Source: Synechococcaceae cyanobacterium (GTDB lineage: Bacteria > Cyanobacteriota > Cyanobacteriia > PCC-6307 > Cyanobiaceae). Taken from it: DNA of 47,697 nt. The DNA is taken from positions 1 to 47,697 of the forward strand of contig CANHMF010000003.1 in the NCBI GenBank assembly GCA_947461705.1, written 5' to 3'. Shown piece by piece: positions 2,682 through 7,681 of the stretch; the first letter of the stretch is position 1, and every line of letters begins with the position of its first letter. Under the pieces are notes generated by a model. That model was not told the origin of the DNA and did not search any database. It saw only the letters and a list, made by a program, of their open reading frames with translations. Position numbers and translations under genes: made by a program.

Positions 2682-3944
2682 TTATGGCCTGATCAAACGC
2701 GCCAGTAACGCCAACTCGCGCCCCTGCTGTTGCATCAGCCCCCAGCGCACACGCCAGGGTGCCACGATAAACAGTCGCAGCATGGCGGCAATCAGCTGGG
2801 GGAGGCTGAGGGTGTTGGAGAGGAAACCAAACCACTGCTCCGCCGGCAGGCGGAAGAAGGTAGAAAAAAAGGCCCGCAGCTGATCCTCCGGGTAGCGCAT
2901 CAGCTTTTCCAGGCCAAAGCGATACAACGCATGCTTGCGTTGCAGCTCCAGGGGCCAGAGGGCCTGCCAGGCCTGGTGCGACAACTGCTCAACCGCGAGC
3001 TCGGGCTGCCGCAATCCAGCGGCGATCACCTCTGCCAGGGCTGGAGCCCGACGCAGCAGTGAACCCACCATGTAGCCCGATGCGGGATGCACCATCGAGG
3101 CGGCACCGCCAAAGGCCAACACCCGCTGCCGGATGTCCGGCAGCGGCAGGTTCATCGGAAACAGACAGTGCTCCTCGTGCTGCACCTCCAGAACATCGAC
3201 ACCGCGGTGAGCCAATCGCCGCAGCAGTCGGTCCTTGAGCACGGCATAAGGGACGGCTGGCGCCAACGCCAGAGACGTTTCCTCCACGAAGAACATCCCC
3301 TCACCAACATCCATCGCATAGAGAAAGGTGGGCGGGCCGCAGCGGCACTCCGCCTCACTGAGGTGGTCGCAGCGATAGTCCATCAGCACGAACTGGCCGG
3401 GATCCACCGGCGGCACCGAAAAGCGACCCACGATGCCGTAGGCAGCCTGGCCTGCCACCGGCCCCTCATCGGGACGCTGCACAAAAGCAGCCCTGTGGCC
3501 ACTGGCATCGATCACCAACCGGGCCGCGATCAAGGCGCCATCCGCGGTGACCACCCGGGAGCCACGGGCATCGTGCTCAATCGATGCCGCCACACCACGC
3601 TGCCAATGCACACCACCGCCTTGGCACTGCTCAAGCCAGTGCTGCTGCAGGGCGGTTTTGTCGAACAGCCCGTAGTCGATGCCGTGCTGCACGGCGGAGC
3701 TGGCGAGACCATCGCCGAAGTAACTGCGGGTGTCGCTCCAGCGATGGGCCAGCAGGTGCTGCAGGCCCATCGCATCCACCTCAGGCCCCCAGACCCCATA
3801 GGTGTTGGGCCAGGGAGCGCCGGGGTCCTCCGGGGCCAGACCTTGCACCGCAACACCGCGCTCGGCCAGAGCGCCGGCGATGCACAGGGCAGCGGGCCCT
3901 GCGCCGATCACCAGCACCTCCACAGGCGCCGCAGGCTGGCTCAC
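2682..3944 (-). CDS. crtL: Lycopene beta/epsilon-cyclase (CrtL type)
   Basis: FAD-binding N-terminus VLVIGAGPAALCIAGALAERG and NTYGVWGPEVDAMGL cyclase motif; GTG start overlaps upstream gene stop (GTGA). Confidence 0.9.
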   Translation of the reverse strand: MSQPAAPVEVLVIGAGPAALCIAGALAERGVAVQGLAPEDPGAPWPNTYGVWGPEVDAMGLQHLLAHRWSDTRSYFGDGLASSAVQHGIDYGLFDKTALQQHWLEQCQGGGVHWQRGVAASIEHDARGSRVVTADGALIAARLVIDASGHRAAFVQRPDEGPVAGQAAYGIVGRFSVPPVDPGQFVLMDYRCDHLSEAECRCGPPTFLYAMDVGEGMFFVEETSLALAPAVPYAVLKDRLLRRLAHRGVDVLEVQHEEHCLFPMNLPLPDIRQRVLAFGGAASMVHPASGYMVGSLLRRAPALAEVIAAGLRQPELAVEQLSHQAWQALWPLELQRKHALYRFGLEKLMRYPEDQLRAFFSTFFRLPAEQWFGFLSNTLSLPQLIAAMLRLFIVAPWRVRWGLMQQQGRELALLARLIRP

Positions 3945-5065
3945 AGGGACAGCTCCAGCACAGCTCTGTTGTTGGCCTGCAGACCAGCCGCCTCCAGGAT
4001 CTGCTGCTCCGGATCGGCCAACACCTCGAGGCGGTGCTGGCCCGGCCCGAGCTCCAGCGGCACAGCGAAGTGTTCTTCACCTCCGGCCGCCAGCCAGGGC
4101 AGACGCAGATAGCGATGGCCGCTGTAGCGGTCGTTCACCACCACAGCCACCCCCACATCGCTCACATCCAACGCCCCACGGTTGCTGATGCGGAAATGGG
4201 CAGCTCCCTCGCCGTAGCGCAACTGGTCGACCGCCAGGTCGCTGGCGAGGGTGTGGATGCGCTGCAAGGGGTAGAGCACCAGGCGCTCCAGCTGCTCGAG
4301 GGTGGTGTCGGGGTGCTCGTGGTGCAGGTGGCCGCCGTAGCGGAGGTCGGTGCTGCAGCCATGCAGGTGCAGGTGAGCGCCGCTCTGGGGCACGGTGACG
4401 CGTCCCCGTTCAGGCTCGGTGTCGTAGAAGCCGCAACACTCCCACTGCAGGGAGCGTCCCAGAAAGCGGATCGGATCGGCCGGATCACCAGGATCCTCAA
4501 CGGCCAGCCGGTAGTGCTGCAACGATTGATAAATGCTCTGTCCAGCCGCGGCCTCACTGACCTCGCTGCGGGCAATAGCGGTGTTGCGTCGCTGCTGGCC
4601 CATGCACAGCTTGGAGGCCACGGTGATCACCAGCCCCTGCCAGCGGCTCAGCAGCCGCAGGCCATAGATCGGCGCCTCGGGCAAGCGCCCCTGCCCCTGG
4701 AGCAGGGCAATCGCCTCCGCCACCAGCTCCTGCAAGGGCCGCCCCTGGCTCGTGCCGAGGGCTGCCAGATCCACCGGCGTGCGCAGGGCTGTGGCGTCAC
4801 CGCTGAAGCACACATAGGGGAAGTGACCACTGCCCTCGCCAGGGCGAAGGGCCCGGATGCCTCCATCACTGGCCTGGCATTTCCAGATCGTGGTGTCGCC
4901 CCCGGGCTGCTGCAGAAAGGTGAGCTCGCCGTTGTCGATGCTGGTGGTGGTGCCCAGGCCCAGCACATCCCCCTGTAGCGGGATGCGCTCGAGGGGAAGG
5001 TGCTCGCGCACGTCCCCCTGAATCAGGTCGATCACCGTGTTAGCGATCCAGAACTCGACCGCCAT
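3941..5065 (-). CDS. Acetolactate-decarboxylase-like domain protein with C-terminal CARDB-like domain
   Basis: GLGTTTSIDNGELTF, WKCQASDGGIRALRPGEGSGHFPYVCF and AHLHLHGCSTDLRYGGH (HxH-x10-H) resemble ALDC/BudA; C-terminus FRISNRGALDVSDVGVAVVVND...LGPGQHRLEVLADPEQQILEAAGLQANNRAVLEL resembles CARDB. Confidence 0.6.
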   Translation of the reverse strand: MAVEFWIANTVIDLIQGDVREHLPLERIPLQGDVLGLGTTTSIDNGELTFLQQPGGDTTIWKCQASDGGIRALRPGEGSGHFPYVCFSGDATALRTPVDLAALGTSQGRPLQELVAEAIALLQGQGRLPEAPIYGLRLLSRWQGLVITVASKLCMGQQRRNTAIARSEVSEAAAGQSIYQSLQHYRLAVEDPGDPADPIRFLGRSLQWECCGFYDTEPERGRVTVPQSGAHLHLHGCSTDLRYGGHLHHEHPDTTLEQLERLVLYPLQRIHTLASDLAVDQLRYGEGAAHFRISNRGALDVSDVGVAVVVNDRYSGHRYLRLPWLAAGGEEHFAVPLELGPGQHRLEVLADPEQQILEAAGLQANNRAVLELSL

Positions 5066-5071
5066 CGGCGT

Positions 5072-7681
<2,610 letters not shown>

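Follow-up and report, generated by a model that had tools for sequence, protein, structure and literature searches.

A divergent acetolactate-decarboxylase-like protein with a CARDB-like domain in picocyanobacteria

The gene between gyrA and crtL and its predicted fold

The window analysed here, a stretch of 47,697 nucleotides from a Synechococcaceae cyanobacterium (assembly GCA_947461705.1, contig CANHMF010000003.1), carries between gyrA and crtL a gene, single-copy in this genome, for a protein that resembles alpha-acetolactate decarboxylase (ALDC) in its N-terminal part and a CARDB domain in its C-terminal part (Table 1). The reading frame, its spacing from gyrA, its overlap with crtL and the peptides quoted from it, all described in a first-pass annotation made from the DNA letters, were confirmed on the minus strand; the overlap comprises four base pairs, GTGA, shared by the stop of the ALDC-like/CARDB gene and the GTG start of crtL. 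Elsewhere in the window, as judged by eye, positions 12-611 appear to code for the last part of a Cys-rich (SPASM-like) protein, and positions 639-2603 for an alpha-amylase-family protein whose C-terminus would bind carbohydrate.

Table 1. Positions in the window of the ALDC-like/CARDB gene, its direct neighbours and the features of its product
Feature	Position	Strand	Remarks
ALDC-like/CARDB protein, CDS	3941..5065	minus	374 aa, ATG start, stop included; ORF
gyrA	5072-7681	minus	ends 6 bp upstream of the ALDC-like/CARDB gene; ORF and synteny
crtL, lycopene beta-cyclase	2682..3944	minus	downstream neighbour; NF045687 643 bits, cut-off 500
ALDC-like domain, ~residues 4-275	4241..5056	minus	boundary inferred from model and alignment
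CARDB-like domain, ~residues 276-374	3944..4240	minus	Pfam PF07705 and Foldseek to the PF1109 CARDB domains
H233-x-H235-x10-H246, proposed zinc ligands	4328..4369	minus	invariant; spacing as in ALDC
N45-G46-E47-L48, counterpart of the ALDC DGE(L) Glu (E65, B. brevis)	4922..4933	minus	invariant; aligns with LDGE of 4bt2
T148-V-A-S-K152-L-C154, T148 at the position of the ALDC catalytic Arg	4604..4624	minus	hhalign vs 4bt2; invariance
H249-x-H251, second invariant His pair	4313..4321	minus	without counterpart in ALDC sequences compared

A Pfam search found both of the domains proposed at the outset, each below its cut-off: Alpha-acet_dec (PF03306) matched residues 9-75 of the window protein with E 0.0018 and 18.1 bits (cut-off 25), and CARDB (PF07705) matched residues 290-366 with E 2.3e-4 and 21.8 bits (cut-off 22.7). 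The NCBIfam model TIGR01252 gave 14.8 bits, its equivalog cut-off being 180.65. CARDB scores in relatives were 32.6 and 22.8 bits, the former (E 9.7e-8, above cut-off) belonging to a distant relative whose ALDC match lies just below its own cut-off, at 24.1 of 25 bits. When a profile of 42 family members was compared by hhalign with an ALDC profile that included the 4bt2 sequence, the score was 41.0, whereas reversing the profile gave 23.3 and 100 column shuffles gave a mean of 15.6, with an SD of 2.7 and a maximum of 24.9. Searches of the PDB by sequence, with the single sequence or a profile, returned no ALDC match, ALDC being found there by structure comparison only, and PHROGs contained no match for the protein.

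AlphaFold models were obtained for the window protein (pLDDT 84.4) and for its 40% identical relative from genome G407 (pLDDT 84.9). In Foldseek comparisons with the PDB, the top 14 matches of the former (E 3.0e-9 to 1.3e-7) and the top 12 of the latter (best E 1.5e-10) were all ALDC, with probability 1.00 and TM 0.65-0.76 on the ALDC chains, and for both models the next matches were the CARDB domains 2kl6 and 3idu (PF1109 of Pyrococcus furiosus). Since the alignments behind the two models share sequences, the predictions are separate but the evidence is not fully independent. Profile comparison and both models support the predicted combination of a divergent ALDC fold and a CARDB domain that the first-pass annotation had supposed. 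With ALDC itself (AlsD/BudA, EC 4.1.1.5; PF03306, TIGR01252; PDB 4bt2, 6j3d, 6inb) the protein has the predicted fold in common over about 270 residues, although identity in the structural alignments is 13-21%, and scores stay below the Pfam and far below the NCBIfam cut-off. With CARDB domains it shares the predicted beta-sandwich (Foldseek E ~1e-4 to 1e-5, ~20% identity, and the Pfam match, which for the window protein falls just short of the cut-off), but here the domain sits on an apparently cytosolic enzyme. No signal peptide is evident, so an adhesion-type role for the CARDB domain, as envisaged earlier, is not suggested. A literature search on ALDC plus CARDB found nothing relevant.

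The segment that holds the proposed zinc ligands contains two overlapping H-L-H motifs, and the x10 spacing, identical to that of ALDC, applies from the second one only. HxH-x10-H is no chance motif, for none of its three histidines (H233, H235, H246) varies among 31 picocyanobacterial homologues or among relatives that are 38-47% identical. The triad and E47, as well as many polar residues around the site, stay invariant down to about 40% identity, and a GxGT-type N-terminal motif is, like E47 as the Glu of DGE/NGE, common to this family and ALDC. The description of the ALDC signature as intact thus holds for the triad and the N-terminal Glu, but not for the rest of the active site. An Arg that is invariant across the ALDC set (R173 of L060, which we take to be R145 in B. 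brevis ALDC numbering) is replaced by the invariant T148 in an ungapped local alignment. The ALDC C-terminal stretch with Glu253, where E280 is invariant in the ALDC set, has no counterpart in sequence alignments, the CARDB region following there, though a residue that substitutes for this Glu in space may exist. The new family also differs from ALDC by about 25-30 residues inserted ahead of the triad, and K152, L153, C154, H249 and H251 are invariant within it. We regard the protein as probably cytosolic and as a CARDB-bearing subfamily of its own within the ALDC fold, distinct from standard ALDC; it lacks two sequence features of true ALDC and should not be filed as alsD or budA without an assay.

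Distribution, neighbourhood and relation to true ALDC

A scan of GTDB genomes found 29 ALDC-like/CARDB loci, in records of Synechococcus, Cyanobium, Vulcanococcus, Prochlorococcus and unclassified cyanobacteria. Synechococcus WH7803 is a carrier (L017). Matches occur in 65 of 300 genomes of the picocyanobacterial family, and the gene is intact or nearly so in 56 of the 300, a count that includes G216, whose copy (L124:4658-5815) was later found to be broken by a stop. Outside that family, a profile search covering 339 cyanobacterial genomes turned up only three carriers, G335, G407 and G416, the copy in G416 being interrupted. No relatives were found on plasmids by tblastn with a distant relative as the query, nor in a scan of viral contigs, and neither Pfam nor NCBIfam has a model for this protein family. 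The dN/dS values of 0.08-0.23 in six pairs indicate that intact copies are under purifying selection. A match in G273 (E 1.4e-4; L125:4978-5514) was rejected as ribosomal protein L6, a weak false positive on the CARDB region.

Only freshwater-type loci have gyrA-gene-crtL or an order close to it, and in most of them the gene adjoins crtL; an extra gene lies between the two in L011, L012 and L014, and crtL comes first in L013 and L093. In marine Synechococcus, the gene comes after one for an LD-carboxypeptidase and faces genes for fructose-bisphosphate aldolases (named from sequence alone), and in one marine case a gamma-glutamyltransferase gene intervenes on the LD-carboxypeptidase side. Remnants of 127, 37, 22 and 16 recognisable codons persist between gyrA and crtL in G218, G236, G227 and G200, respectively, and the gene is cleanly missing from this position in G009, G134, G115 and G072; crtL is kept where its neighbour has decayed. 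Because the crtL neighbourhood is confined to freshwater-type lineages and marine loci lie elsewhere, no role in carotenoid metabolism follows from this adjacency.

Nor does a new substrate follow from the argument that cyanobacteria lack an acetoin pathway, since several picocyanobacteria possess an alsS-alsD operon. A putative acetolactate-to-acetoin route was reported for Black Sea Synechococcus (PMC6776005), and genome papers deduce acetoin fermentation there from the annotation of an acetolactate decarboxylase (PMC6776005, PMC8955281); the enzyme reported for BS55D/BS56D may be either a true AlsD or a member of the ALDC-like/CARDB family. PF03306 scores above cut-off in 41 of the 300 family genomes, with 37 scored intact, and the true picocyanobacterial ALDC reaches about 250 bits. 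Its gene lies directly 3' of catabolic alsS (NF006378 691 bits, cut-off 510) in G064, G134 and G253, and the same adjacency is evident by coordinates in G009, G023, G115 and G193. This AlsD, a possible functional counterpart of the ALDC-like/CARDB protein in the same clade, belongs to a separate family and is encoded mostly in other genomes. Picocyanobacterial AlsD has about 50 extra N-terminal residues of ribbon-helix-helix appearance, to which Pfam gave no name (L102:5339-6190, L103:4734-5588, L109:4691-5542, L060:1345-2196).

Three genomes have intact copies of both genes, where 8.8 would be expected within genera (P 0.003), and a second within-genus test, without G216 and five genera, gave three co-occurrences against 8.1 (P 0.007); both tests ignore phylogeny, and they are to be read with the genera having been picked after the data were seen, several tests having been made and the signal coming from few genera. 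The tendency of the gene to be found where alsD is missing points to a substitute for the ordinary enzyme, or a sister of it, with a reaction that is predicted. Gene remnants fit repeated loss of one gene or the other, and replacement: the ALDC-like/CARDB gene is accompanied by two broken alsD pieces in G181 and by an alsS stub in G265, and a true ALDC by a broken ALDC-like/CARDB copy in G218. The alsS-alsD remnants of G181 lie at L127:5386-5878 and L126:5464-5767, one of them being an alsS start fused to an alsD end by deletion. In about half of the related genomes both genes are missing, so that the function is a dispensable one.

In the window genome, an intact catabolic alsS lies on contig C101 (L118:2823-4463), with no alsD in the 3.7 kb after it and no PF03306 match above cut-off anywhere; as the genome is 89% complete, absence of alsD elsewhere is probable, not certain. 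On the whole, alsS is rare among genomes that have the ALDC-like/CARDB gene and lack alsD. A lone alsS is also present in G186, G216 and G273, and since G186 and G273 have neither decarboxylase, it is no proof that the new gene serves alsS.

Another possible partner is a ThDP-dependent enzyme of the 2-keto-acid decarboxylase type. In G407 the ALDC-like/CARDB gene begins 110 bp 3' of the gene for such a protein, which has the His-His motif of PDC/IPDC-type enzymes and matches TIGR03393 with E 1e-123, under the equivalog cut-off. The same adjacency, with the broken copy, is seen in G416, and in G064 and G134 it is the true ALDC that shares a gene cluster with a homologue of this ThDP enzyme. Within genera, the PDC-type enzyme and the ALDC-like/CARDB gene co-occur 16 times against 10.5 expected (P 0.003, mostly from one genus); with alsD no association was found (P 0.48). 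The reservations made above on phylogeny, choice of genera and number of tests apply here as well. A strict link, by which a PDC-type enzyme would always be accompanied by the ALDC-like/CARDB gene or alsD, intact or broken, held in the first 80 genomes, but was broken in the completed set by G156, G132, G257, G281 and G125; these exceptions reduce it to a within-genus tendency. The clusters adjoining alsSD at L102:6206-12166 and L103:5604-11566 encode a PPOX-type flavoprotein, a PDC/IPDC-type ThDP enzyme and two amidohydrolase-like proteins, and the first three of these kinds recur without alsD in L105 and L106.

Possible functions of the ALDC-like/CARDB protein

The function that we tentatively prefer, while rating it somewhat short of probable, is that of a zinc decarboxylase of the ALDC fold, which would replace AlsD or act on a similar acid. 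H233, H235 and H246 would bind Zn2+, which would chelate the keto and hydroxyl oxygens of an alpha-hydroxy-beta-keto acid. K152, H249, H251 and their neighbours, all invariant, may assume the role of Arg145 and Glu253, and CO2 would leave. The likeliest substrate would be alpha-acetolactate, made by AlsS or the anabolic IlvB, or else a closely homologous acid, 2-aceto-2-hydroxybutyrate for example; in many picocyanobacteria the gene would thereby do the work of alsD. As for the CARDB domain, it may serve to close the active site or to bring about oligomerisation. This proposal draws on the fold evidence, the invariant triad and Glu47, purifying selection, the alternation with alsD, the gene remnants, the alsS without alsD in the window genome and the ThDP enzyme that adjoins the gene in two outgroup genomes and shares a cluster with true ALDC in G064 and G134. 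Counted against it are the missing carboxylate-handling residues of ALDC (Arg145, Glu253), the rarity of alsS in carriers of the new gene that lack alsD, the large share of genomes with neither gene, and the phylogeny-blind nature of the tests.

The main rival, which we regard as possible, retains the fold and the metal site but assumes a different reaction, on another acyloin or beta-keto acid, for instance the product of a PDC/IPDC-type enzyme; alternation with alsD would then be coincidental or lineage-driven. The invariant Thr in place of Arg145, the lost C-terminal Glu, and the extra His pair and K152 point in this direction, as do the adjoining ThDP enzyme in G407 and G416 and its within-genus association with the new gene and not with alsD. 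On the other hand, that association is largely the contribution of a single genus, the ThDP enzyme occurs in several genomes that contain neither decarboxylase gene, and in picocyanobacteria the ThDP and ALDC-like/CARDB genes are not neighbours. A bolder form, which appears to us rather doubtful, would make the family a new class of enzymes built on the ALDC fold, in which T148, K152, H249 and H251 take the place of the Arg/Glu pair, CARDB that of the C-terminal end, and the substrate is not acetolactate but possibly an acyloin that a PDC-type ThDP enzyme produces.

CARDB domains occur commonly in proteins that serve binding and assembly. Together with the missing catalytic Arg and C-terminal Glu, this would agree with a metal-binding protein of ALDC fold devoid of decarboxylase activity, such as a sensor, carrier or scaffold, in which CARDB would mediate interactions; however, we find this improbable, as invariance of Glu47 and of polar site residues at about 40% identity exceeds the needs of a scaffold, and the neighbours encode enzymes. 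A partnership with crtL in carotenoid metabolism, for which the shared gene order, the short overlap in the window and the adjacency in most freshwater-type loci might speak, is very unlikely and largely refuted by synteny, given that marine and outgroup members lie elsewhere, that the two genes are separated or reversed at five loci (L011, L012, L014; L013, L093), and that crtL outlasts the decayed gene.

Picocyanobacteria of the sea and of fresh water, whose overflow and fermentation chemistry is poorly known, count as major primary producers, and two quite different proteins could underlie a reading of their genomes in terms of acetolactate decarboxylase and acetoin. The ALDC-like/CARDB family, unnamed in Pfam and NCBIfam, lends itself to a simple enzyme test, and it would show to what extent the ALDC active site can change with its metal site kept.
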